NCBI GenBank assembly: GCA_022600975.1
Contig: JAHZJJ010000074.1
Span: 1-52,552, forward strand
Length of the DNA stretch: 52,552 nucleotides
DNA from: Gammaproteobacteria bacterium
Lineage (GTDB): Bacteria > Pseudomonadota > Gammaproteobacteria > Pseudomonadales > Cellvibrionaceae
Reading direction: 5' to 3'
Each line of letters starts with the position of its first letter. The first letter of the stretch is position 1. Of this stretch, positions 788-52,279 are shown in pieces. The position numbers and the translations under genes are program-made. Under the pieces are notes generated by a model that saw only the letters and a list, made by a program, of their open reading frames with translations, was not told the DNA's origin and made no database searches.

Positions 788-1009
788 GTTTTAGCAGGCG
801 ATATTGGATAGTGTCACTGCATTACTTGCACAACCGGATAAACGGGTAATCCAAGAGACATAAGTCCTCTCAGTCGCCCATGCCTTATTTTGACTGCGCA
901 TCATAATACGTAGCTGAGGAATCAGCCTGCCGGAGTTTGTATCAACCGGAAAAGGAATATCGTCCATAAAATCCTGCTGTTGTTTCATCAATGAATCCCA
1001 GGAACCCAA
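788..1009 (-). pseudogene. Truncated tyrosine recombinase / integron integrase N-terminus
   Basis: 72-aa ORF contains RLIPQLRIMMRSQNKAWATERTYVSWITRL, resembling the phage-integrase N-terminal SAM-like domain (xxxhxYSxRTExxYxxWIxRF) of IntI-type integrases. No catalytic domain follows. Orientation is divergent from the downstream cassette-like genes. Confidence 0.55.
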
Positions 1010-1303
1010 TACTGTTTAAATATACAGCAGTCTATTTCCGAATGCGAATATTTGCCGGTATATTTTCAGGGTTTTGAGTAAGTTGTTGTTTTTACAACCA
1101 ATTAACCCTGTGGGTAACATGGAGTTATGCGGCGGCTTGCTGTATAATTCTGAGCAGGAAAAATCAACAAAGTAAATAACTGATTGATTTTATAGCTAAA
1201 AATTAAAAAAATGCGAAATATAGATAAAAAATATACAGCAAATAAATATACGGCAACCGTCCGTAGAATACGCTGTTAGCTATCAATTACAAAGGAATAA
1301 TTT

Positions 1304-2827
1304 ATGAGCAATAAATTTACAACTCCCCTATTAAGCGCGTTGATATTCCTCACTGCGTGCGGTGATAACACAGCCACGAGTGTTGAGAAATCTTTTACCA
1401 CAGAAAACCAAAACCTCTCCCATCAAGATAGAGAATATCAATTGCTTGATACTCGAATTGGAATACTAACATTTGAAAATGATTATCTAGTCGGTGTTCC
1501 AACCGAAGAAAGCCGAGATGACATATTTAATGCCATCGACTTTCAGCGTGCATGCCAGGCATACATTTGGGCTGTGCCTATGGCTAGCTTTTATGCTTGG
1601 AAACAATCATTTTATGACATGGGCGGAAAAGATGGCCAGATTCACTACTTTGAAAGTTATGAATCAAAACTTGGCGGACTAACTTACAACACAAGCACGC
1701 CCTATGTATTGTCTTTCTTCGATGTCGCTAAGCAAGCTGTATTAATTACTATTCCCACCAATGAAGTACGCGGAGCTGTTCATAATGTATGGCAGATTGG
1801 CTTGTCTCAAATGACGGAACCAGGTGAATACCTCATCATTCAAAAAGGATCAAAAATTCCTGCTAATGCACCTAAGAAGGCAAAGGTTGTTGAATCTGAT
1901 AGTAACTATGTTTTCTTTGGTGTTCGACTCATGGCCAAAACTGCTGAGCAACGCAGCAAAGACCTAGGAAATCTTAAAATTACGCAAGTCGACGGAACAC
2001 CGCTTAGCAGTAACGACATAAATCGCCCTACAGTCGGGTTAGACGGTAAACATCCTCGCGGCATGGCCTATTGGACACTTTTAAATGAAGCTATCCAGAA
2101 TGAACCCGTGCATGAGAGAGACCGCATTATGCACGATATGTTACGCCCACTAGGCATTGAAAAAGGTAAGGCTTTTTCTCCTAACGAACGTCAGAAAGCC
2201 TTACTTGATGAAGCTGTCGTGGTCGGTGAAATCATGACAAAAAACATCGATTTCAGTAAAACAGGACGTTTGGAACAATCCGAATATGGACCTGAGGGTA
2301 ACCGATGGGAAATTGCCACTGCATCTGAGCCTAATCAAGATAGAGGCTACGGTATGGATCTCGATGGGCGTGCAGCTTGGTTTTATGAGGCGGTAACTAA
2401 CGATATTGCAATGCATGGCATGGATAATGGCGGCTGGGGGCAAGTTTACCTAGACAACTATCGAGACGAAAACGGCAAAGGTCTTGAAGGGGGCAAGCAT
2501 TACACACTCACTATTAAAGGCGATGTTAGCTATGCTGAGACATTTTGGACTGTGACGGTCTACAACATCGAGAACCGCGCCATCATTAAAAATAAGATAA
2601 AGCGAGCTGATGTAGGCTCTAATGTTCAAGGTACTGAAAAAAACGAGGATGGAAATTATGTATTCCACTTCACACCTGAAAAGCCAGACGGTGTAGCAGA
2701 AGCAAACTGGGTACAAACAAACCCCGGTGAAAATTGGTTTGTTTATTTCCGAGCATATTCGCCAAGTAAAGAATTCGTGGCACAAACGCCGGAAACTATC
2801 CTGCCTAATTTTGTACTGGTTGAATAA
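1304..2827 (+). CDS. DUF1254/DUF1214 domain-containing lipoprotein
   Basis: 507 aa; lipobox LTACGD; DUF1254-like TSTPYVLSFFDVAKQAVLITIP and DUF1214-like GDVSYAETFWTVTVYNIENRAIIKNKI; RBS aaaggaa upstream. Confidence 0.85.
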   Translation: MSNKFTTPLLSALIFLTACGDNTATSVEKSFTTENQNLSHQDREYQLLDTRIGILTFENDYLVGVPTEESRDDIFNAIDFQRACQAYIWAVPMASFYAWKQSFYDMGGKDGQIHYFESYESKLGGLTYNTSTPYVLSFFDVAKQAVLITIPTNEVRGAVHNVWQIGLSQMTEPGEYLIIQKGSKIPANAPKKAKVVESDSNYVFFGVRLMAKTAEQRSKDLGNLKITQVDGTPLSSNDINRPTVGLDGKHPRGMAYWTLLNEAIQNEPVHERDRIMHDMLRPLGIEKGKAFSPNERQKALLDEAVVVGEIMTKNIDFSKTGRLEQSEYGPEGNRWEIATASEPNQDRGYGMDLDGRAAWFYEAVTNDIAMHGMDNGGWGQVYLDNYRDENGKGLEGGKHYTLTIKGDVSYAETFWTVTVYNIENRAIIKNKIKRADVGSNVQGTEKNEDGNYVFHFTPEKPDGVAEANWVQTNPGENWFVYFRAYSPSKEFVAQTPETILPNFVLVE

Positions 2828-2840
2828 GAATTTCAATAGC

Positions 2841-2884
2841 TAATCGGGTAGCCAGGGGTATTTACCCCCCAGCCCCCACAACAC
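2841..2884. repeat. 40-bp repeat, copy 1 (5' end of a non-coding element of about 640 bp)
   Basis: taatcgggtagccaggggtatttaccccccagcccccacaacac, compared with copy 2 at 5496-5534 taatcgggtagccggagttacccccagcccccacaacac. Confidence 0.75.
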
Positions 2885-3528
2885 GGCTCCGCACAGGGCG
2901 TTTCCTAAAGATGTTTTAAAATAAGCTGGCCGATTATCTCCAACTTACCTCAATGCTGGTTACTGTTTTTGCGTCAATACTCCTAAACCCGGTCGGGTAT
3001 GGATAATTGAGCTGCACAGGCTCCTCATTGATCTTCAGGTTCAGGCCTTCACCCTGTCCTACCCATTACGATGGGCGTTGGGCTACTATGCCGTCTGCTG
3101 ACTTCTGCTTAGTCACATGCCGAGTTGCCCCGTCATGCGCTATCGGTTGTCATCTGATTCGCTCCTTCCGGTCGATGAGGCTGAAAGGCCAAGGCACTTG
3201 TAAACCAGAGCCTCACTGGTTAATGACCAATCGCGTGTTAAGCAGATCTCCCCAGATAAGAACATGAACTGTCCCTGCGCAACTGCATCATTTACGGTGG
3301 CCCTTAGATCACATGGCTTCGCTGTCTTGTGCCAACGCGCCTCCAGCCTACGCCTCATAGGATGTTTTTGTTCATCAGCTCGCAGTTTTGTGGCCGGCTT
3401 CCTTCAGACCAACCCTCGCGGGTAAGCCCTTGCCATTCGCTAGTAGTTATCGTCTAATCACAATAGGGTTTTCGACGGTGATCTTCCTACAGAGGACTTT
3501 CACCTCATTAGTTCATGCCTATGCTGGG
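2885..3528. other. Non-coding segment continuous with repeat copy 1; possible degenerate mobile element or structured RNA
   Basis: No convincing ORF in six frames (only short overlapping frames); GC-richer than adjacent cassettes; ends where the attC-like sequence begins. Confidence 0.35.
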
Positions 3529-3624
3529 CGTACACAAGCAGCTGCAATCTGACTCCGCAAACTGTCACGCTTTTTGTTCCAAAAAGCCCGCCAGCTTGCT
3601 ACGAAGTTGAACTGAGCGTTACAT
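3529..3624 (+). other. attC-like recombination site (degenerate at its 5' end)
   Basis: Shares ctgcaatctgac-tccg and actgtcac with the site at 4285-4399; internal complementarity (ctccgcaaactgtcacgcttttt against aaaaagcccgccagcttgctacgaag); ends in the same gcgttacat core. The left core is poorly conserved (gtacac). Confidence 0.55.
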
Positions 3625-3645
3625 TTTAAGTTAAGGATTCAAAGA

Positions 3646-4290
3646 ATGGAATCAGAAAAACAGAATGTGCTAAATACATTAATAAAATCACTTCCAGCAA
3701 AATACATATTTTTGTTACTAATAATTTTTCTTGCTTTCATCGGAGTAGAAATTTTATTTGCAATAAATGAAGGTGCTGATATTGAGCTTTATGGGCTCAA
3801 AATATCCTCGTCTTCTAATAATGAGAAAGTAAGAATAATTGCAGAGAATGAAAGCAAGTATGAGACCTTGCAGAACGAATATTCTAATGTATTGAATGAT
3901 AAGGCCATTCTTTATTCGGAGAATATACACTTAAATGAGAAAATATCTCTATTAGAAAAAACCATAAACAATAAATCTTTCTCCATGGAGTCCAATCGTA
4001 GGGAGCAAGCCTTTCTTCGAATAGATAATATAGAAGAAGAAAATAAAAAATTAAAAGTAGATCTTGCTGTTCAAATGAAAGCGCTTTCTGTTGCAAGACA
4101 AAGTTATAATTCTGAGAAGTCTCTTTGTGATAGAAAACAAAATATGTTTTATGGACGGCCCTGTGATATGGCGGGTAAGTATAAAGGAGCAATGGATGCG
4201 TTGCAGATGAAAGTTTCTCAAATTGAAAAAGAAATTCAAGTTAATGACCAAACAGTCATTGAGTTGGTCAAAACAACTGGGAAAATGTAA
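3646..4290 (+). CDS. Cassette-encoded membrane-anchored coiled-coil protein, unknown function
   Basis: 214 aa; N-terminal TM segment KYIFLLLIIFLAFIGVEILFAI followed by long charged coiled-coil; starts about 22 nt after the attC-like core and its TAA stop lies in the next attC R'' box. Confidence 0.7.
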   Translation: MESEKQNVLNTLIKSLPAKYIFLLLIIFLAFIGVEILFAINEGADIELYGLKISSSSNNEKVRIIAENESKYETLQNEYSNVLNDKAILYSENIHLNEKISLLEKTINNKSFSMESNRREQAFLRIDNIEEENKKLKVDLAVQMKALSVARQSYNSEKSLCDRKQNMFYGRPCDMAGKYKGAMDALQMKVSQIEKEIQVNDQTVIELVKTTGKM

Positions 4291-4399
4291 CCAGCGCCTG
4301 CAATCTGACCTCCGGCCACTGTCACCTTTTGTGAAAAAGCCGCACAAAAGGCGCACAAAAGGCGCCAGTAGACGGAGGCAGTTGAGGCGGGCGTTACAT
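4285..4399 (+). other. attC recombination site (59-base-element-like)
   Basis: R'' atgtaac (4285-4291) and R' gttacat (4393-4399) are perfect complements; imperfect palindrome ctgacctccggccactgtcaccttttgtg / cacaaaaggcgccagtagacggaggcag; the CDS stop lies inside R''. Confidence 0.7.
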
Positions 4400-4415
4400 G
4401 CACTAGGAAAGTAGA

Positions 4416-5498
4416 TTGAAGTTACGTAAAGGGAAGACTAAATCCATTCTTGACGCTTCTATTGATTCAGCGCTTTTAGCTGTTGAAATATACAACAAGC
4501 CAAGAACTACATTTCGTAGTGAAGGTTTCATCACCATGATGATCATGGCTTGGACGAAACTATTACATGCCCATTTTAACGCAAAAGGCGACCAGTACTA
4601 TTACAAAAAAAAGAATGGTCGTTTCGATACCGTTGACGGAGAAAGAAAAGCATGGGAACTTGCTACATGTATCAAGAAATATAATAAACTTTCTCTTGGC
4701 GTAGAATCAAATCTCAACTTCTTTATAAAGTTAAGAAATAAAATTGAGCATCGGCACATAGAAAAAAGAGAGGTTGATACTCTTATATTTGGGGAGTGCC
4801 AATCTTTACTTTTTAATTATGAAAGTCAGCTAATTGAGTTTTTTGGGAGTACCTATTCTATTAATGAAGCGTTAGTTTATAGTCTCCAGTTTTCCCAAAT
4901 ACGCACGCAACAACAAGAGCAGGCAAATAAATCTGTCTTGTCAAAAGATATATCAGAAATAGTGGCTTTTGTAGAGAAATACAGAAACACTTTAGATGAC
5001 GATACATATAGTTCCCAAGAGTACAGTATAAAGCTTATACAAATACCAAAAATATCAAATACTAACAGAGCCGATGCGGCTGTAGAGTTTGTGAGGTGGG
5101 ATACCCTTAGCGATGAGGATAAAGCTGCATATGAGAAGCTTAATATAATTATTAAAAATAAAACCGTAAAAATTGAAGCAGCTAATGTAGGCAGGCTAAA
5201 ACCCTCAGAGGTTGTTAAGAAAGTTAATGAAGGACTTAACGGTAAGTCCATCACTCAAAATCTTCATACTACCTTATACAAATTATTCAAAATCAGGCCT
5301 ACAAATGGTTCAGATGAACCATTTAATACACAGGCTGAATTTTGCCTTTATGATGAACCCCACACTGATTACGTGTATCAGGATGCTTGGGTCACATTCC
5401 TTATCCATTTTATGCAAACCACAGATTTAGAAGCGTCTGAGTTAAGACAAAAAGAGCGAAACGGAGAGAAGCTGGATGTCGACCAATATCGCATATAA
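4416..5498 (+). CDS. DUF3644-like protein, cassette-encoded
   Basis: 360 aa, TTG start just after attC with aggaaa RBS; ILDASIDSALLAVEIYNKPRTTFRSEGFITMMIMAWTKLLHAHF ... KLRNKIEHRHI resembles DUF3644. Confidence 0.7.
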   Translation: MKLRKGKTKSILDASIDSALLAVEIYNKPRTTFRSEGFITMMIMAWTKLLHAHFNAKGDQYYYKKKNGRFDTVDGERKAWELATCIKKYNKLSLGVESNLNFFIKLRNKIEHRHIEKREVDTLIFGECQSLLFNYESQLIEFFGSTYSINEALVYSLQFSQIRTQQQEQANKSVLSKDISEIVAFVEKYRNTLDDDTYSSQEYSIKLIQIPKISNTNRADAAVEFVRWDTLSDEDKAAYEKLNIIIKNKTVKIEAANVGRLKPSEVVKKVNEGLNGKSITQNLHTTLYKLFKIRPTNGSDEPFNTQAEFCLYDEPHTDYVYQDAWVTFLIHFMQTTDLEASELRQKERNGEKLDVDQYRI

Positions 5499-5534
5499 TC
5501 GGGTAGCCGGAGTTACCCCCAGCCCCCACAACAC
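5496..5534. repeat. 40-bp repeat, copy 2 (solo)
   Basis: taatcgggtagccggagttacccccagcccccacaacac, starting at the stop codon of the DUF3644-like CDS and directly followed by ttacatttta, the same sequence that follows the attC core at 3619. Confidence 0.75.
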
Positions 5535-5557
5535 CTTACATTTTAATGAATAGTTGT

Positions 5558-5633
5558 TGCGCACCTTTTTCTCATCGTACTTTGAACCAAATTATTCATC
5601 GTAGCATGTATCAAAATTTAACCAGTTTTACCA
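5558..5633. repeat. ~75-bp direct repeat, copy 1
   Basis: tgcgcacctttttctcatcgtactttgaaccaaattattcatcgtagcatgtatcaaaatttaaccagtttt, closely matching 7018-7092. Confidence 0.8.
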
Positions 5634-5656: not shown

Positions 5657-6602
5657 CTATCGTAGGATCTGAAACCCAGATCCAGGGAGCCAAACCTATG
5701 GCGGCTATTCAAAATGATCATCGTCAAGCGTGAGTTTGATCTGACTGTGCCCGAAACCCTAGAGCTAAGTGCCTGCGCGCCTCTTCTTGCAGCGAAAAAG
5801 GCGTTGTCTCGGATGTTGAGGTGCTTGCAATAGAGGAGATCGGTACTGCTTATGCGCCCATGCAAAAAAGTGCTGTGAAGTACCGTTTTGTGATAGGCCT
5901 GGCAATCTTTAAAGCAAGCTCAAGCTAAAAAAACTGCCCTTAGCGTTGCTGAGTTTTATTTTATATTGAATTTTTTAGAGGCTTTGACGATTTATATTTA
6001 ATTTATGGTATTTATTGTCGCCTAATGCCCTCACTTTAATTGCACTTCTCAAAAAAAGCGATTAATGTTGAGCATGCTGCGATAACACCTAAAGTAAAAT
6101 GCGGCACAAGCGATAAGAAAACGTAAAAAAAACCGTTTACTGGTGTTATGTAGCCCGCGAGGCACCAAGTAGCTAAAGCCCTCGCGGAAAACCAGCAACC
6201 GTACCAATATAGAAGAACCACAGCATGATTGTGTGAACGTAAGATAACGCCACCCCTCAGTGTTATCAGCACCGAGAGATGGCTAACCCCGAAAGATACA
6301 TTCCTATCTAGCGAGGCTATCTTGGATGATACGCTAAACACACGCTCGCCTTCAATAAAGTTGTTTGTTGCGCTGAGCAATTTCGTCCGCTCCCACCTTT
6401 GGTGCCGGAGTACGTTGTGGTGTAGCGCGAAAATAGGTGTGGTTCTCTACTTCAGCCGCGGCCCGCCCGTCCTCCCTCGTTATTCAAACATACCGTAAAA
6501 TAACCTTATATTTAATCCAGATGGATTACGCCTGTGACGAGCGTGCATTGTAAGCGTGTACGCGTTTTGAAATTTCGCGTCACAGGCTTTTTAAAGGAGA
6601 TT

Positions 6603-6863
6603 ATGAAAATGTTAGAAGTAGACTGTAAATTATTGCAATCTGTTCACCTGGGTAAAGTTTTTACCATCACGCCGGTATGGATGGGAAACAACATCGTAAA
6701 GCTATACATAGTGGCCCGCGATGGTGGCGAACTGACGATCGTTGAGCAGATTTTGCCCACAGCAAAAAAAGCCCAGCGACCAGAAGACCTGCAAAACGCC
6801 CAAAACTCTGGGGATGGCACACCCCCTAAACCTCCGAGCGATGATTCAAGTTCGCAACACTGA
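6603..6863 (+). CDS. Small hypothetical protein, possibly with a divergent CsrA-like N-terminus
   Basis: RBS aaaggag just upstream; (MK)MLEVDCKLLQSVHLGKVFTITPVWMGNNIVKLYIVARDGGELTIVEQILP plus Pro/Ser/Asp-rich tail; followed by a strong terminator. The track ORF starting at 6534 is probably over-extended. Confidence 0.65.
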   Translation: MKMLEVDCKLLQSVHLGKVFTITPVWMGNNIVKLYIVARDGGELTIVEQILPTAKKAQRPEDLQNAQNSGDGTPPKPPSDDSSSQH

Positions 6864-6893
6864 AGCCCAGAGTAAGTTCTAAGCAGTATAAAA

Positions 6894-6945: not shown

Positions 6946-7017
6946 TAAAAAATTTATCTAAAGATTAAATTTAGAATAGTGAGGCACCTTTTTTTCTCGA
7001 AAGTCGAGAGAAATTGA

Positions 7018-7092
7018 TGCAGACCTTTTTCTCATCGCTCTTTAAAACAAATTATTCCTCGTAGCATGTGGCAAAATTAACCAGCTTATCCA
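7018..7092. repeat. ~75-bp direct repeat, copy 2
   Basis: tgcagacctttttctcatcgctctttaaaacaaattattcctcgtagcatgtggcaaaattaaccagctta, matches 5558-5633. Confidence 0.8.
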
Positions 7093-7489: not shown

Positions 7490-8326
7490 TTAGCCCGCGC
7501 TGAAACAACCCAGTGTCAGCCGTTGGTGATGACAATAGTCTCTACGGCTGCTCAGCTGATGTAAACCGACCGTTGCGAATAATTGATGTACGTCGGTTGC
7601 CTGCTGCCAACCATGTTCCACCATTAACCAACCCTGAGGAGACAAAAAATGTTTGCATTGCCGCGCAATTAACTTGATATCTCCCAGCCCTCGTTCCGGC
7701 GCTACCAGTGCCGAGTGTGGTTCAAAGCGCAGATCCCCCTGCTGCAAATGGGGGTCGGCAGCGTCAATATAGGGTGGGTTGCTGACAATCAAATCAAAAC
7801 TCAGCCGCGGTACATCAGCGAACCAATCGCTGCGCAAAAAGCGGACATTATTCAGTTTGAGTTGCTGACAATTCTCTCTTGCCAGCGCTAACGCAGCAAC
7901 AGACTTATCGGTGGCAATAATTTGCCAGCCGGGCCTTTCGCTGGCCAGTGCCAGGGCAATGGCGCCCGTCCCTGTACCGAGATCCAGAAGCCGCAACTGC
8001 TTTTGTGGGAACATTTCCAACGCCACTTCGACCAGCATTTCGGTGTCTGGTCTTGGAATCAGCGTGCTGTTATTCACTTTGAGGGGCAATGACCAAAATT
8101 CCCGCCTACCCACAAGGTGAGCAACCGGCTCGCCATTGGCGCGGCGCCTGAACAAAGCATCAAACTGCTGCTGTTCAATTTCGCTCAGGAGATATTCCGG
8201 CCAAGTGTAAAGCCAGCTGCGCGGCTGCTGTAAAATATGGCCAAGCAAAACTTCCAAATCGAGCCGCCCGCTATCGCTCTGCGAGAGCTCTCTACTGCGG
8301 CGTAGATTATCACTGACACTGCCCAT
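7490..8326 (-). CDS. prmC: Peptide chain release factor N5-glutamine methyltransferase
   Basis: LLDLGTGTGAIALALASERP and SNPPYI motifs; downstream of prfA. Likely start MGSVSDNLRRSREL at 8326; the longer track start overlaps prfA. Confidence 0.95.
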   Translation of the reverse strand: MGSVSDNLRRSRELSQSDSGRLDLEVLLGHILQQPRSWLYTWPEYLLSEIEQQQFDALFRRRANGEPVAHLVGRREFWSLPLKVNNSTLIPRPDTEMLVEVALEMFPQKQLRLLDLGTGTGAIALALASERPGWQIIATDKSVAALALARENCQQLKLNNVRFLRSDWFADVPRLSFDLIVSNPPYIDAADPHLQQGDLRFEPHSALVAPERGLGDIKLIARQCKHFLSPQGWLMVEHGWQQATDVHQLFATVGLHQLSSRRDYCHHQRLTLGCFSAG

Positions 8327-8330
8327 TACA

Positions 8331-9413
8331 TCATTCGCCGAGGCTAGCCAACAGGTCTGCTTGGTGTTCGGTACCCAGTGCTTCGATGACTTCGTCCATA
8401 GAACCCTGGAGAAATTCATCGAGTTTATAGAGGGTGAGCCCTATACGATGATCCGTAATCCGCCCCTGGGGAACATTGTAAGTGCGAATTCGTTCCGAAC
8501 GATCCCCACTGCCAACCAGATTACGCCGCGTATCAGAAAGCGCCTGAGCGGCGGCAGATTCCTGTGCGCTATTGAGTTTTGCCTGCAATAGTGCCATAGC
8601 TTTGGCCCGGTTTTTATGTTGCGAACGCTCATCCTGACACTCGACCACAATACCACTGGGAATATGAGTAAGGCGCACCGCAGAATCGGTTTTGTTAACA
8701 TGCTGGCCACCAGCGCCACTGGCACGATACGTGTCTATTCGCAAATCGGCCTTGTTGATATCTATGGCCTCGCGCTCGTCCGGCTCAGGCATCACTGCAA
8801 CAGTACAGGCAGAGGTGTGAATACGCCCTTGTGACTCCGTTTCCGGCACTCGTTGCACCCGGTGGGCACCGGACTCAAATTTCAATTTTGCATACACATC
8901 GGCGCCACTGACACGGCTGATAATTTCTTTATAACCACCGTGCTCACCACTATTTTCACTGATAATTTCAATCCGCCAACCTTGCTTTTCCCCATAGCGC
9001 GAATACATACGAAACAGATCACCAGAAAAAATCGCCGCTTCATCACCACCAGTCCCCGCGCGAATTTCCAGAAACACGTTTTTATGATCATTGGGATCCC
9101 GTGGCAACAACAAGGTTTGCAGCTCATGCTCTAGCAACGCAAGTTTTTGCTCTGCCTGTTGCAATTCCTCTTGCGCCATTGCACGCAGTTCGACATCATT
9201 ATCGTGCAACATCTCACTTGCTGTGGCCATGTCTTCTTGCAAATCTTTATAGCGTCTATAGCAGTCCACCAAAGTTTCAAGCTCAGCGTACTCTTGGGAT
9301 AATTCGCGGAATTTATGCTGGTTGCCAATGATGTCTGCATCACCTAGCAGCGCCGACACTTCTTGATGGCGCTCCAACAGGTGTTCGAGTTTATTTTGTA
9401 CTGATACTTTCAT
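8331..9413 (-). CDS. prfA: Peptide chain release factor 1
   Basis: [38 protein letters not shown]1 length and context. Confidence 0.97.
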
Positions 9414-10708
9414 TACTTAGGATTCTTTTGTGAATGCTCACTTGAGGGTAAATACTCAATGTCCGGTGCCTGTAATCCGATAACTTCATGAGTAATACGT
9501 AGCCGTTCGAGATCACCCGCGGAGGTCGCGCGACGCAGGCTAACAGTGGGGGCGTGAATAAGTTTATTGGTTAGCGTGCGCGCCAACTGCTCCAAAAGCT
9601 GCTGTGGGTCTCCACCACTGCGCAGCTGCGCCAGCGCTTTTTCTAACTCTTCCTTACTGATCGATTGCGCCTGCTGGCGATAATTACGAATAGAGTCTAC
9701 CGCTTTAAGCGCCCGATGTTTGCCCATAAACGCCTGCGCGGCGATATCGATAATCTCATGAGCAGCTTCGGCAGCCTTTTTGCGCAGGCGCACACCCTCG
9801 TCAACCACACCCCGCAGGTCATCCACGGTATAGAGATAAACATCGTCGAGCTCGGCAACCTGCGGTTCGATATCCCGTGGTACAGCAATATCTACCATAA
9901 ATACCGGTCTATGACGGCGCTGTTTAAGCGCCGTTTCCACTGCCCCTTTGCCCAAAATCGGCAATTGGCTGGCCGTGGAGCTGAAAACAATATCGGCCTG
10001 AGGCAGATATTCGGGAATATCTGCCAACAATATAGCCTTGGCGCCAAAATTTGCAGCCAACTGTTCCGCCCGTTCCAGGGTACGATTAGCCACAATCAGT
10101 CCCTTGACCCCCTTATCGAGCAAATGGCGGGCGACCAACTCAATGGTATCGCCAGCACCGATCAAAAGTGCAGTCTGCCGCCCCAAATCGGTAAAAATAC
10201 GCGCGGCCAGAGAAACTGCAGCAAAGGCAACAGAAACCGGATTTTCACCAATTGCGGTTTCAGTGCGTACTTTTTTGGCAATCGCAAACACCTGCTGAAA
10301 CACATTGTGTAACAGTGCACCAACGCTGCCGGCCTCTTGTGCTACCGCGTAAGCAGATTTCATTTGCCCGAGAATTTGCGGCTCACCGAGCACCAGCGAA
10401 TCCAACCCGCAGGCAACTTGCATCATATGACGTACGGCGGGGGCGCCAGAATACTGATAATGGCAAAGACGAAGTTGCTCTAGTGGCAACTGGTGATGAG
10501 CCGCAACCCAAGCGAGTAGCCTTTCAGGGCATATATCCCCATAAATCTCAGTGCGATTACAAGTGGAGAGAATAGCCAACTCGCGACAACTCAGGGCTTT
10601 GCGTGCTTCGCCCAGTGCTCGTGGCATAGATTCCGGAGTAAATGCCACCCGTTCACGCACCGCAACAGGTGCACTTTCGTGGTTGATTCCCAGGGCGAGA
10701 ATTGGCAT
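9413..10708 (-). CDS. hemA: Glutamyl-tRNA reductase
   Basis: [55 protein letters not shown] overlap with prfA. Confidence 0.97.
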
Positions 10709-45149: not shown

Positions 45150-46694
45150 TTAGTCTTCGTGTTCTCCCTCTCGTTGTGGCATTTCCGTCACTGTACTATC
45201 AGAGCCACTTTCACGCAGCTCTTGTGATTCAACTGCAGGAAAGTCTGGGCTTTCATCTGCCGTGGCCCCTACCGAGGTTGAGGTTTGCGACGGTATTGCC
45301 TGCTCCTCAGGTGGCATGCTTGCTTCGCTGCCAGCAGTCACTTGGGCCGGCGAGCTAATTTGTTCTTCTGGTGCTTGAATGCCGATATGATAGGCGGCAA
45401 AGCCCGGCTGTACCACTTGGTTCATCGCCATGCCGATAACCATGCCATTATACTCTGAGCGAATCTCTTTGCGCACATTGGTAATCGGGTTGGTAACAGT
45501 GCCGAGCAAATCACCCTTGCGAACATTTTCTCCCAGAGATACATCGCTAAATATAATACCGCCGGTGGTGGCGCGTTGCCAGGTGGAATTGTAATACACC
45601 GGTTCCGGATCCCCCCACAGACGGAATTTACTCACCATATCCAATTGGTTTAACAAGGTACGGATACCTTTTACACTGTGGTTAACCGATTTTTCATCGA
45701 GTATCATCGGCGCTCCCGCTTCCAGAGTAACTGCTGGAATACCCGCGTTGACCGCAGCCCGACGCAAGGTGCCATCGGCACCTCTGCTGTGCAGCACCAC
45801 TGTGGAGCCAAAGCCCCGAGTCATTTCCACTACCTTGGGATTACTCAAATCACCCCGCAACTGGGGCAAATTGGTACGGTAAAAAGAGCCGGTGTGCAAA
45901 TCCACTATAGCGTCGCAATGGGTCACTATTTCATCAAAAAATGACTTGGCAATACGCGCTGCAGACGAGCCATTAGCATCGCCGGGGAAGTGGCGATTAA
46001 GATCTCGACGGTCCGTTAAATAGCGGGAACCGCGGTGAAACCCCTGCAAATTAACAATGGGCACCCCGATCACAGCACCGTGCAATCCATCGGCATCAAG
46101 TTCATACACAACTTTACGTACTGTCTCAATTCCGTTAAGTTCATCACCGTGAATCGCCGCAGTTAAGCACAGCGTGGGGCCCGGTTTGGCGCCGTTAACT
46201 ACCAGAACCGGAGTCGAACTATAAACGCCTTCAAAGTGTTGACTGGGAGACCAAGCCAAGCGAACAGAGGTTGCCGGTAGCACTTCAGTTCCTAACAGGC
46301 GTAACACCTTGTCGGTGCCAATACTCGGATTCCCCTCTTCTTTACTGACATCGGAATCAGCAGCTTTTTTATCTGCCTCTGTCACTTCCCTACCCCCTGC
46401 TGAAGCTTCTGGCCCTGACTCTTCCGTTGCCAAAGGCTCAGCCGGAGTTCCACAAACGGAGTTTTCTGCAATAGCAGTACATTCATTAGCAGCTGTTTTC
46501 GACCCCAAAGCATTGGTCTCTGCTCGAGGCAAACCATCTGTATTCTTTGGTGGCTTGGCTTTTTCTACAACAGCTGTCTCGATGGAATCAGCAGCGGGTA
46601 AAGGCGTCTCTTCTGCCAATGTAAATGTCGCTAGAACCAATAAAAAGAACAACAAAATAAGGCTCGGTGAGCGCGACAACATAAATGGCTCCAA
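45150..46694 (-). CDS. Secreted succinylglutamate desuccinylase/aspartoacylase (M14-like) family protein
   Basis: LCLTAAIHGDELNGIETVRKVVYELD, RDLNRHFPGDANGSSAARIA, CDAIVDLHTGSFYRTNLPQLRGDL; signal peptide; low-complexity N- and C-terminal extensions. Confidence 0.9.
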   Translation of the reverse strand: MEPFMLSRSPSLILLFFLLVLATFTLAEETPLPAADSIETAVVEKAKPPKNTDGLPRAETNALGSKTAANECTAIAENSVCGTPAEPLATEESGPEASAGGREVTEADKKAADSDVSKEEGNPSIGTDKVLRLLGTEVLPATSVRLAWSPSQHFEGVYSSTPVLVVNGAKPGPTLCLTAAIHGDELNGIETVRKVVYELDADGLHGAVIGVPIVNLQGFHRGSRYLTDRRDLNRHFPGDANGSSAARIAKSFFDEIVTHCDAIVDLHTGSFYRTNLPQLRGDLSNPKVVEMTRGFGSTVVLHSRGADGTLRRAAVNAGIPAVTLEAGAPMILDEKSVNHSVKGIRTLLNQLDMVSKFRLWGDPEPVYYNSTWQRATTGGIIFSDVSLGENVRKGDLLGTVTNPITNVRKEIRSEYNGMVIGMAMNQVVQPGFAAYHIGIQAPEEQISSPAQVTAGSEASMPPEEQAIPSQTSTSVGATADESPDFPAVESQELRESGSDSTVTEMPQREGEHED

Positions 46695-46902
46695 TTTTTA
46701 ACTTTCAATACTCCGGCAGTGCAAGCTCATATTCCATACACACCGCTCAGCAAGATGACGACAAATTCCCAGCAGTCCAATAGCCGTTTTCAAGAGCCTT
46801 TAAAGAGAGGGGTATACTGAATACTCCGATGGTCCCTTATGTTAAAGCAAAGTATAACGAAGGGCTAAGCGCCAGTTTAAGCGGTGATTGTGAAGCAAGG
46901 TT

Positions 46903-48261
46903 TTACACCATAATTTTCTGAAGGCTTTTGCCACTGACCCGCCAGAAGCGCAACCCCAGCAAAATCGACGCCGCACCGAGGCCGATACAAATCCCCACCC
47001 AGTAGCCGTATACTCCCCAATATGCTTCTCCCAACCAATAGGCACAAGGAAGACCAATTAGCCAATAAGAAATAATCTGCAAACACATAGGTACGCGGGT
47101 GTCTTTATAGCCCCGCAAGGCGCCCCAAGCCATGGCCTGAGCCACATCCACCAGCTGGAAGGCTGCGCACAATAGCAATAAATTACTCGCCACCACAATA
47201 ACGGCAGCATCACTGGTATACGCCATAACCAATAAATGGCGCAATGCAATCAAAACGATACCCGTAAACAGGGCATAAACCATGCCACTGCCAATGCCGA
47301 CATAACTTACAAAACGCGCTTTGTCGGGGCTTTTTTGCCCCAAGGTCCAGGCAACGCGAATACTTACTGCCTGAGCCATCGCCAGAGCCACTAGATAAAA
47401 AGCCGAGCCGATATTCAATGCTATCTGATGGCTGGCGACAATGACGGCGCCATAGGATGCCAGCAAGATCGTCATACTGGCAAAAAAGGTCACTTCACTG
47501 GCAGCGCCAATGCAAATTGGCAAGCCAAGAGCCAGCAAATGGCGCAAGGTAGGCCAATGAGGTCTGGACGGAAAAAGCTTCAACTTCAGCACGCGGTAAG
47601 CCGGGACTTTACCGAGATGCCAGAGCAGAGCGAGTGTAATGCACCAATTGATGATACTGGTTGCCCAACCGCAACCGACGCCACCCATGGCTGGAATGGG
47701 CCCGGCGCCAAATACCAGTAGTATGTCCAAAGGAATATTAAGCAGTGCGGCAAAAAGGTAAATTCGCATCACCGCACTGACCTGTGCCATACCTTCGCAA
47801 TAACCACGCACTGCGATGCCAACAGCAAAGGGCAGAACACCGCTGACCAATGCCTGCAAATATCCCTGCATAACTTGGCGCACAGGTTCTTCAGTTTGAA
47901 TCCACTGACTCCACCAGGGCACCAAAAGTAACAGCAACGCTATCACCAGCGCGCCGCTCAAGGCAATCCACATCGCCTGGCGCAACTGATTGGCGCAACC
48001 AAGCTCATTACCCGCGCCACGCATATGCGCCACTACCGGTGATACTGCCGCCAGCAAGCCAATCAAAGTGACCGCGCATATCGCCCAGACCCCAGAGCCC
48101 AGAGCCAGACCAGCCAAGTCTACCCCGCTGGCATGACCGGCAACCATTGTGTCCACCATACCTATGCTCACCACCGCCAGGTTGCTCACCGCCAATGGTC
48201 CACCCAAAATAGCAAGCTGTTTAAGTTCGCCCCCTATAACAATACTGTAAAATCTGGCCAT
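46903..48261 (-). CDS. MATE family efflux transporter
   Basis: 12 TM; LGGPLAVSNLAVVSIGMVDTMVAGHASGVDLAGLALGSGVW. Confidence 0.93.
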   Translation of the reverse strand: MARFYSIVIGGELKQLAILGGPLAVSNLAVVSIGMVDTMVAGHASGVDLAGLALGSGVWAICAVTLIGLLAAVSPVVAHMRGAGNELGCANQLRQAMWIALSGALVIALLLLLVPWWSQWIQTEEPVRQVMQGYLQALVSGVLPFAVGIAVRGYCEGMAQVSAVMRIYLFAALLNIPLDILLVFGAGPIPAMGGVGCGWATSIINWCITLALLWHLGKVPAYRVLKLKLFPSRPHWPTLRHLLALGLPICIGAASEVTFFASMTILLASYGAVIVASHQIALNIGSAFYLVALAMAQAVSIRVAWTLGQKSPDKARFVSYVGIGSGMVYALFTGIVLIALRHLLVMAYTSDAAVIVVASNLLLLCAAFQLVDVAQAMAWGALRGYKDTRVPMCLQIISYWLIGLPCAYWLGEAYWGVYGYWVGICIGLGAASILLGLRFWRVSGKSLQKIMV

Positions 48262-48472
48262 AAATACAACTCAAATGAAGTGGCTATACTGACGTAGAAA
48301 GCATCTGAATTTCGCTGTGAATCGGTGCCACACAGAGCGAATGAGATTTAGTGGGTTGGACTCTAAGTCTTTCAAATGAGCCATCGACGGATAGCCCTTT
48401 TAGAGTACTCGCGGTTTGCGTACTAAGTTAAGGCAAAATATGCGCCAGCATCGACCAAAAACGGAGTGAATT

Positions 48473-49108
48473 ATGAGTGGTATCTTCAATTGGTTCAATC
48501 GGGCTTACTGTTGTTTTGTGAAATTTTTACGCCCTCTAGATGGCTTGGGTCCGCTGGCCCTGCGGCTATTTCTGGCTCCCATATTTATTCTCGCCGGGCT
48601 TAATAAACTCGACAGTATTGGTGAAGTTGCCGCCTGGTTCGGAAACCCCGACTGGGGCTTAGGGCTACCGGCCCCACTATTACTAGCTTGGCTAGCGGCG
48701 CTAACTGAATTTTTGGGAGGCATTGCCCTGCTGCTGGGATTGGCCGTGCGGCTGATATCGATACCCCTGTTGGTTACGATGGCAGTAGCGGCGATAACCG
48801 CTCACTGGCAGTACGGTTGGCATGCACTGCCAGAACAAACCTTGGTGGTACCCTGGGAATGGCGCAATGACCTGATTGGAGAGGTCATTATACGCAAAGA
48901 GAGAGCCATAGATCTGCTTAAAGAGCACGGCGATTATGATTGGTTGACCGAAAGCGGCAACATCACAATACTAAAAAACGGTATCGAGTTTGCTGCAACC
49001 TATTTTGTCATGCTACTGGCACTGCTATTTTCCGGCGGCGGACGCTTTGTGAGTTTGGATTACTGGATCGCCCGCCGGGCCTGCGGCAAGTCTGACATAA
49101 ATCCGTAA
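48473..49108 (+). CDS. DoxX family membrane protein
   Basis: LALRLFLAPIFILAGLNKLDSI..VAAWFGNPDWGLGLPAPLLLAWLAALTEFLGGIALLLGL. Confidence 0.9.
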   Translation: MSGIFNWFNRAYCCFVKFLRPLDGLGPLALRLFLAPIFILAGLNKLDSIGEVAAWFGNPDWGLGLPAPLLLAWLAALTEFLGGIALLLGLAVRLISIPLLVTMAVAAITAHWQYGWHALPEQTLVVPWEWRNDLIGEVIIRKERAIDLLKEHGDYDWLTESGNITILKNGIEFAATYFVMLLALLFSGGGRFVSLDYWIARRACGKSDINP

Positions 49109-49164
49109 GCGCTAACCTATTTCGCATCTGGTGTAGCAATAGGGCTACAGACCTAGGCAGGCTA

Positions 49165-50280
49165 TCACTGCTTTTGTGGCGGCTCAATACCAACCCACAG
49201 TGGAGTACCGGCAACGATTTTAAGATCGAACTGCCGGTACTGCCCATTAAAAACGGCATAGGGGCCTATTAAAGCTTCATCAATATCTGGAATCGAGAAT
49301 ATCATTAAGTCATCGTAACGATGCTCAACGCCGCTGGGGCAAACACCAGCAATATTATCGCTCGGGCGATAAGCACATAAAGTAGATGATTGCGCTGATG
49401 AAGGCGGACAGACACAGTAACCCTCCCCCGATATATTTTCGGCACAATTGCCGATATCACCTGGAAAGCGAACAGTATTGACCCGGTTTTCTGCAAAAAA
49501 ACGGTTTGACGTCTGAGTTGATAGGTTACCAGTACAGATATTGATACGGCTATTCGCCTGAAGATCGACGATGCGTTGAATCCTGACCAACTCAGTGGCC
49601 GAAGCGCAACGGTCATTCGCCACACAGGGGCGGTCATCACTACTGCTGGGAATAAACGCATACTGCGCACTCGAAGAAACCACACAGGAAAATAATCGAC
49701 TATCACGGCGGCGCAAACCTTCCGTTTCTCCACCGAGAGCATTCACCTGTTGTATGTAATCGCAGCTACCATTATTGAGCGCCGTAGTAAAATTAAAAGG
49801 CGGTGCAATCTCTATATCCTTGCGCTTAATCGCCACCTTATAGTGGTCGCCCAGTTCCTCAAAAATTGCATTTTCAAGCGCCTCGCTGGCACGGGAAAAA
49901 TTAGTCGTATCCCACGGCAACGGCTGATAAGAAAGGGTACAACGATTGATTTTCGCCTGCTGTAAAATAATTTTAAAATTTCCCACAGGATCGCTAGGAT
50001 ACTGGGTCGTTTGCGGGTCGGGCAAACAATCGGCCTGATTAACAAAAATTTCATAAGAAGGGGTGCCCTGAGGAACTGCAAAATAGCTGGGGTCGGCCAA
50101 AACCTGCTGATATCGCCCGCTTCGCAATACCCGCACCCAAGCCGCGTCTATTGCCTGAATAAGCTGCCGCTGGCCTTTTGCGATGGTACTCTCGATAGCA
50201 TTTTCTTCTGCCATGAGCGTAGTTGCCACCAGTGAAAATAACGAAAGTGCCGCTGTTACCCATAAACGTTTGAATTGCAT
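49165..50280 (-). CDS. Periplasmic protein, possibly solute-binding-protein-like, with Cys-rich insert
   Basis: Signal peptide MQFKRLWVTAALSLFSLVATTLMAEE; AIDAAWVRVLRSGRYQQVL resembles SBP_bac_3 helices; many paired Cys residues. Confidence 0.55.
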   Translation of the reverse strand: MQFKRLWVTAALSLFSLVATTLMAEENAIESTIAKGQRQLIQAIDAAWVRVLRSGRYQQVLADPSYFAVPQGTPSYEIFVNQADCLPDPQTTQYPSDPVGNFKIILQQAKINRCTLSYQPLPWDTTNFSRASEALENAIFEELGDHYKVAIKRKDIEIAPPFNFTTALNNGSCDYIQQVNALGGETEGLRRRDSRLFSCVVSSSAQYAFIPSSSDDRPCVANDRCASATELVRIQRIVDLQANSRINICTGNLSTQTSNRFFAENRVNTVRFPGDIGNCAENISGEGYCVCPPSSAQSSTLCAYRPSDNIAGVCPSGVEHRYDDLMIFSIPDIDEALIGPYAVFNGQYRQFDLKIVAGTPLWVGIEPPQKQ

Positions 50281-50770
50281 AGCTAACTCCTAAATTTATT
50301 TTAATGAAATTTAAATGCCAAAAGCTTTATTAGAAATACATTAACTCTGCACAACTTCTGTTCTCACTACCCACCTACCTCCTTGAAAAACTGATGCCTT
50401 TATATATACCATCAGTTAGTAAACGCTTGCCGGGCTATTGCTGATACCACAACGCCCATTATCATCATTTTAATAGAGTGCACAGTTGCAAAAAGCACTG
50501 CGTGACGTTAAATCAAACCTCACATAAAAACTTTTGCCAATAAAACCACCCTAAATTTAAAAATACAGACCTCCTGTTCTCGGAAGATTTGCCAAAGTAA
50601 CTTTTGTCGATTACAAGCGGATTCCAATCTAATAATTGCCTTAAACCCCCTATCCACCAATAAAATCTCTAGCAGCCCCAATCCAAGTCTCAGACTCTGC
50701 GTTATAGCAATAAAAATCATCGCACCATTGGATTGACAATATCACGACACAATCATGGTACAATGGGCAA

Positions 50771-52279
50771 TTGTCTAGCCATTTTTGGAGTATGCATTTG
50801 ATCGCTAAGTTCTTTCGTCGCAACGCTGGCGAGCCTGATGGCCATGCGGTCACTACCGACAACCCCGGCTCCAACAACCAATCTGATAATAAATCCGGCG
50901 ACAACCCCCGATCTCGCAACACCAATCAAAAAGGGCGCTCACCCAATCGCAACCGCTGCCAATCCACCACACCCTGGTCGCTTGAGCAATTTCCGGTAGC
51001 CGAGCTGCCCGATCAAGTACGATTTCACGATCTCGATCTGCCATTGCCACTAATGCACGCTATTGCCGACTTAAGCTTCCAATATTGCTCGCCAATTCAA
51101 GGGCGTACGCTGCCACACACCCTCAATGGCCACGATTTGGTGGGTAAGGCACAAACTGGCACTGGAAAAACTGCCGCTTTTTTGGTCACCATTATTGACG
51201 CACTGCTAAAAAACCCCCTTAAAGAGCAGCCCTATGCCGGTGAGGCTCGCGCATTAATCATCGCACCTACCCGCGAGTTAGTAATGCAAATTGCCGAGGA
51301 TGCCAAGCATCTGTGCAAATATACTGAGTTAGAAATCCATACTTTGGTAGGCGGCATGGATTATCAAAAGCAACAGCGCAAGCTGAATGAGCGCCTCGTG
51401 GACATTCTGGTTGCCACCCCCGGACGGTTACTGGATTTTGCCAGCAATCAAGACTGTTATCTCGATCAGGTGGAAATACTAGTAATTGATGAAGCCGATC
51501 GTATGCTGGATATGGGATTCATTCCCCAGGTACGCCGTATTGTGCGCCAAACGCCGAGCAAAGATTATCGCCAGACTATGTTTTTCTCAGCGACCTTTAC
51601 ACCCGAAGTCGAATCCCTTGTCGCTCAATGGACTCAGAGTCCAATTACAATTGAAATAGAACCGGAACGAGTGGCCACTGAAAGCGTAGAACAGCATGTA
51701 TACTTAGCCGCAAGCGATGAAAAATTTACCCTTCTCTACAACATCTTGAAAAGTGCTGAGGTTGAAAGCCTGATTGTTTTCGCCAATCGCCGCGACCAAT
51801 GCCGACGCCTACACGAAAACCTCACAGCCCACGGTTTCAAAGCCGGCCTGCTCTCCGGAGAGATCGCTCAAAACAAGCGTGTGAGTACCCTTGAGGCCTT
51901 TAAAAAGGGCGCCATCAAAGTACTGGTAGCAACGGACGTTGCCGGGCGCGGAATTCATATCGACGGCATCAGCCATGTAGTTAACTTTACTCTGCCAGAA
52001 GAGCCCGAAGATTATGTGCACCGCATTGGCCGCACCGGTCGCGCAGGTAAAACTGGCACTTCAATCAGCTTCGCCTGCGAAGACGATGCCATGCATATAG
52101 AGCCGATTCAGAAACTATTGGGCAGCCCCCTTAAATGCGAACAACCTCCGCTAGCCTTACTTCAAAAACCGCCCCAGGTGCAAATTCAACGCCATCGCAG
52201 CGAAAATGACCGCCGCGGCGACAGACAAAACCGCTCCCGTAACAGCGGAAGCCGCGGGCCCTACCGCCAACGTCGCTAA
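50771..52279 (+). CDS. rhlB: DEAD-box ATP-dependent RNA helicase (RhlB-like)
   Basis: [68 protein letters not shown]; basic C-terminal tail. True start probably 50792 or slightly downstream. Confidence 0.9.

Follow-up and report, generated by a model that had tools for sequence, protein, structure and literature searches.

The sequence considered here (the window, 52,552 nt) is contig C139 of a Microbulbifer MAG that comprises 2.81 Mb in 179 contigs and is 81% complete; the relatives of its prmC gene that have a species name belong to Microbulbifer. Integrons are bacterial gene-capture devices in which the integrase gene, intI, is divergent from attI and the cassettes. On the minus strand of the window, an ORF of 72 aa at 791–1009 had been read in the initial annotation, as 788–1009, as resembling the N terminus of an integrase. 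Because the family libraries (Pfam, NCBIfam) are too weak for an ORF of this length, we used sister Microbulbifer to build a profile of full-length IntI ORFs (n = 32; some come from overlapping loci, making the number of independent sequences smaller). The profile recognized the ORF with 37 bits (E = 1.3e-10) over residues 3–49 of 352, and this was the sole match among 1,234 reading frames of the window (next frame, E = 1.1). The start region (MDDI) and the motif ATERTYVSWI both lie within the alignment, and tblastx comparison of the fragment with an intact IntI gave 48% identity over 42 aa. Hence, the check proposed for this peptide succeeded with the genus profile and fell short with Pfam, where Phage_int_SAM_4 remained below threshold (E = 0.016); a search of the ORF against NCBIfam gave no match. 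The surviving 5′ end of intI occupies 842–979 (–) and corresponds to approximately codons 1–46 of ∼340, these being all that remains of the gene, and the frame runs on to 791 without homology. The start codon is probably ATG at 967 or 988, not TTG at 1009. The start of a YadA-like adhesin gene (1–561, –) lies at the contig end and adjoins the intI stub.

The attI region (968–1278, +) adjoins the stub, is divergent from it, and ends at the recombination junction GTTA. Window positions 832–1278 are repeated with 93% identity in contig C102 of the same MAG. The identity stops exactly after GTTA (1275–1278) and different cassette genes lie beyond, as predicted if different cassettes were inserted at one attI. 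This comparison confirms both the placement of attI near 1010–1300 and the choice of GTTAGCT at 1275–1281 as the first cassette junction. A promoter scan of attI gave results at chance level.

Relics of IntI or attI are found on four other contigs of the MAG (C102, C31, C116 and C73). In C102, the attI shared with the window (type A) is accompanied by an IntI stub that is longer and is fused to a second type, B. An attI of type B is present on C31, C116 and C73, with an IntI-B stub on C31 and C116 and none in the alignment of C73. No IntI stub on these other contigs reaches the family cut-off.

Cassettes and attC sites

Downstream of attI lie the three plus-strand genes described initially, each of which proved to belong to a cassette. 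Cassette 1 (1276–3618, +) starts at G^TTAGCT, ends at the G of GTTACAT at 3618, and is interrupted by an intron; its gene (1304–2827, +) encodes a DUF1254/DUF1214 protein of 507 aa (Pfam DUF1214, E = 2.7e-30; DUF1254, E = 4.8e-9). Cassette 2 (3619–4393, +), bordered by GTTACAT at 3618 and 4393, holds an ORF (3646–4290, +) for a membrane/coiled-coil-like protein of 214 aa, for which Pfam, NCBIfam and PADLOC searches gave no family above cut-off. Cassette 3 (4394–5541, +) starts at G^TTACAT (4393) and ends, degraded at its 3′ end, in a deleted attC. Its gene (4416–5498, +) encodes a DUF3644 protein (Pfam, E = 1.1e-54) that scores 513 bits with PADLOC PDC-S19, by sequence a candidate anti-phage defense family. 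The first cassette gene of C116 is likewise PDC-S19 (450 bits), with 26% identity to the cassette 3 protein over 150 aa, and candidate anti-phage genes (DUF3644/PDC-S19) are thus carried by two relic platforms within one genome. The core GCGTTACAT, noticed initially ahead of two of the genes, occurs on the plus strand at 3616 and 4391 only (0.2 occurrences expected), ∼20 nt before the start codons.

An attC finder based on sequence rules gave many false matches in chromosomal DNA, and a covariance model (R1), trained on 24 attC sites of sister species and none from the window, was used instead. On the plus strand, the model matched 4285–4399 with 72.7 bits (E = 5e-17) and 3528–3624 with 34.7 bits (E = 7e-7); the sole further match in 52.5 kb was a weaker reverse reading of 4285–4399. 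The first of these, attC2 (4285–4399, +), is an intact VCR-like site of 115 bp, with a predicted folding energy of –34.2 kcal/mol versus a mean of –13.8 for shuffled sequences. In cassette 2, R″ (ATGTAAC, 4285) is fully complementary to R′ of the same cassette (GTTACAT, 3618). The second, attC1 (2838–3624, +), is split by an intron into part of the R″ half-site (2838–2842) and the remainder (3534–3624). With the intron set aside, the site reads AGCTAACAAG, and its R″ half-site (AGCTAAC) is complementary to GTTAGCT at attI (1275–1281). Two attC sites thus lie in the same, plus-strand orientation, with a third present as a remnant. With two attC sites and no integrase above the cut-off in the MAG, the array qualifies as a CALIN.

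Group II introns in the attC sites

Group II introns are self-copying elements. Two matches to Rfam group-II-D1D4, at 3261–3425 and 3044–3139 (–; 118.8 and 63 bits, respectively), mark a group II ribozyme core and show that attC1 is interrupted. Together with comparison of several copies, which places the boundaries between AGCTA and ACAAG within R″, these matches define an ORF-less group IIC-attC intron of 691 bp (2843–3533, –), lying in the bottom strand of the attC. Its 5′ end is GTACGCCC at 3533, and its 3′ end is CCCGAT at 2843. A copy of 95% identity is carried by contig C38 in a different attC-like site. Domain 5 of the attC1 intron appears shortened relative to an intact sister copy (L191), making the activity of this intron doubtful. 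A second intron is represented by a remnant of its 3′ end (5498–5534, –), which lies in R″ of attC3 and shares 82% identity with the 3′ end of the first. Both insertions lie directly behind cassette genes. A promoter scan of the intron gave chance-level results. The truncated remnants at window position 5534 and at position 10048 of another locus (L052) both end in CACAACAC, followed by CTTAC.

The intact copy L191, a full-length relative from sister genome G042 (1988–3926), adjoins an attC match and encodes a reverse transcriptase (TIGR04416, 361 bits), whereas the window copy has no ORF. Among solved structures, this reverse transcriptase is closest to the GsI-IIC enzyme (409 bits, versus 139 for LtrA), and it is 79% identical to proteins adjoining class 1 integron genes on plasmids. 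An E. coli plasmid has the same architecture, with the order dfrA16, antisense intron, qacEdelta1, and a Photobacterium plasmid holds an ORF-less relative of the intron. On two E. coli plasmids (L217 and L193), relatives of the full-length intron adjoin resistance-integron genes.

Six sister genomes (G010, G030, G031, G044, G045 and G046; L184–L190) carry cassette arrays whose group II introns lack ORFs. The introns are about 470 or 705 bp long, mostly one per cassette, and are in a single orientation within each slice. Each slice of 15–20 kb contains 4 to 11 intron 5′ ends, for a total of 59 over 131 kb. Matches to the attC model, some of them weak, accompany part of these introns. We estimate that in several sister species most cassette attC sites contain an intron.

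Proposed history of the integron and comparison with known systems

The suggestion of a relic integron in the initial annotation is upheld, as an IntI N terminus and two attC sites lie in the right place and orientation, contrary to both outcomes that had been named as counting against it (no recombinase similarity and no attC matches). It did not notice the group II introns, the defense-gene cassette or the remaining relic platforms. We hold with high confidence that 788–5541 is a relic chromosomal integron with intron-interrupted attC sites. The homologies, junctions and intron positions are observed; the order of events, the mobility of the introns in trans and the loss of function are what we infer. 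Weighing against the relic reading are the size of the integrase fragment (∼46 aa), the 81% completeness of the MAG, by which an intact integrase elsewhere may have been missed, the lack of an orthologous complete integron at the locus in the relatives examined, the score of attC1 when split (34.7 bits) and the state of attC3, of which a remnant is left.

The most likely history is as follows. Originally, a minus-strand intI would have faced away from attI and the plus-strand cassettes, and IntI would have placed circular cassettes into attI at G^TTAGCT (1275). Later, intI would have been lost beyond its first ∼46 codons, its place being taken by the upstream region of the YadA-like gene, leaving the three remaining cassettes without a local integrase to shuffle them. 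Introns of the ORF-less group IIC-attC kind, presumably mobilized by a reverse transcriptase acting in trans, would have entered attC1 and attC3, in each case in the bottom strand of the R″ half-site. The locus would thereby display an order of decay, in which the integrase is lost first, attI and the cassettes persist for longer, and the recombination sites become occupied by introns.

Since attI and attC2 look intact, retaining their sequence features, an IntI coming from elsewhere could in principle act on them. It is conceivable, if unlikely, that the array is not dead and that an intact IntI encoded in the missing 19% of the genome acts on these two sites in trans. Full-length IntI is carried by sister species, and many sister genomes have more than one IntI. 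In line with the relic reading, IntI exceeds the family cut-off in 43 of 49 genomes of the genus. The MAG (G000) is not one of these: within its 81%, no integrase above the cut-off was found, all IntI matches are N-terminal pieces, and one has an internal stop. Moreover, attC1 and attC3 are interrupted, which again argues against a live array.

Intron-driven cassette formation was reportedly proposed by Leon and Roy in 2009. By such a route, the introns themselves would have joined genes to attC arms, with no invasion of a finished cassette, and this idea fits the location of the introns, which lie directly behind stop codons and separate each gene from its attC arm. We nevertheless consider it very unlikely. 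In cassette 1, 4/4 variable positions immediately left of the intron agree with the complement of the R′ that this cassette has at attI. The sister arrays point the same way: at least 3 of 4 positions of R″ match the cassette's own R′ in 23 of 39 cases, versus 9.8 expected with permuted R′, and the hexamer to the left of the intron matches the complement of the own R′ with a mean of 2.64/4, versus 1.99 for permuted pairs; neither the count of 23 nor the mean of 2.64 was reached in 5000 permutations. This excess complementarity supports the insertion of introns into existing attC sites. That the relic platforms are assembly or binning artifacts, with strain variants misjoined, is very improbable: several relics do lie at contig ends, and the MAG is in 179 contigs, but the intI fragment of the window ends ∼800 bp inside its contig, and C102 holds chromosomal genes (comEC, psd and rsgA, as read from ORFs) and is 7% divergent from the window copy.

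Returning to the relic integron, its closest parallels include chromosomal integrons with inactivated intI, such as those of Xanthomonas (PMC12444791), in which intI is truncated or lost and a small stable array is kept. The window is alike in both respects. Unlike those integrons, its genome has several relic platforms and introns in attC sites, and a shared conserved neighbor gene was not found. CALINs, attC sites with no functional integrase nearby, have been proposed to be degraded integrons (IntegronFinder, PMC9024848); the window shares these features but keeps attI and the intI stub, leaving its history readable, unlike that of a CALIN. Known group IIC-attC introns, such as S.ma.I2, insert in attC with an orientation opposite to that of the cassette gene (reviewed in PMC8876359 and PMC4424553). 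The introns described here resemble them in attC insertion and antisense orientation, and the reverse transcriptase of the L191 copy may be of class C type; in contrast to S.ma.I2-type introns, the copies here are ORF-less, and in sister genomes most attC sites within an array hold one. In halophile integrons and CALINs (PMC7923331), group II introns also occur inside a CALIN in a genome lacking intI, but those reported include group IIB and occur once or twice per array.

Taken singly, integrase decay, CALINs and IIC-attC introns are familiar; it is their combination that seems to be new and undescribed. In the open literature covered by our search, we found nothing joining Microbulbifer, attC and group II introns, and no description of arrays with an intron in most attC sites. 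More tentatively, we suggest that in this Microbulbifer group ORF-less IIC-attC introns may have colonized most attC sites of integrase-less arrays, locking the cassettes in place, and that the window may represent the eroded end stage. If true, integrons could die, or turn into fixed gene islands, through intron invasion. The sister arrays offer a natural progression, running from living integron through intron-filled array to relic, on which it can be tested whether introns inactivate integrons.

Rearrangement and repeats at the locus

In the relatives (named Microbulbifer species), prmC, which lies on the 7490–9413 side in the window, is followed by orthologs of window 45153–52276. This arrangement indicates that the locus has been rearranged, with a breakpoint at the relic integron. 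The search of relatives for a complete intI here, as proposed initially, was accordingly negative; none of the relatives examined yielded an orthologous complete integron at this position, and genes flanking 20 living integrons of relatives had no match on the MAG contigs examined. The genus also has a groEL-linked integron site; the 12 kb downstream of groEL in the MAG showed no trace of IntI.

Beyond the cassettes, a dispersed repeat (R, 6009–6865) gives ∼40 partial matches across the MAG, many of them located at the ends of contigs, and adjoins the type B IntI stubs. It contains an 86-aa ORF lacking a Pfam match and is bracketed by direct repeats of 75 bp (5554–5628 and 7014–7087; 84% identical). 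A short core of repeat R (window ∼6315–6361) is present in about 11 sister genomes.
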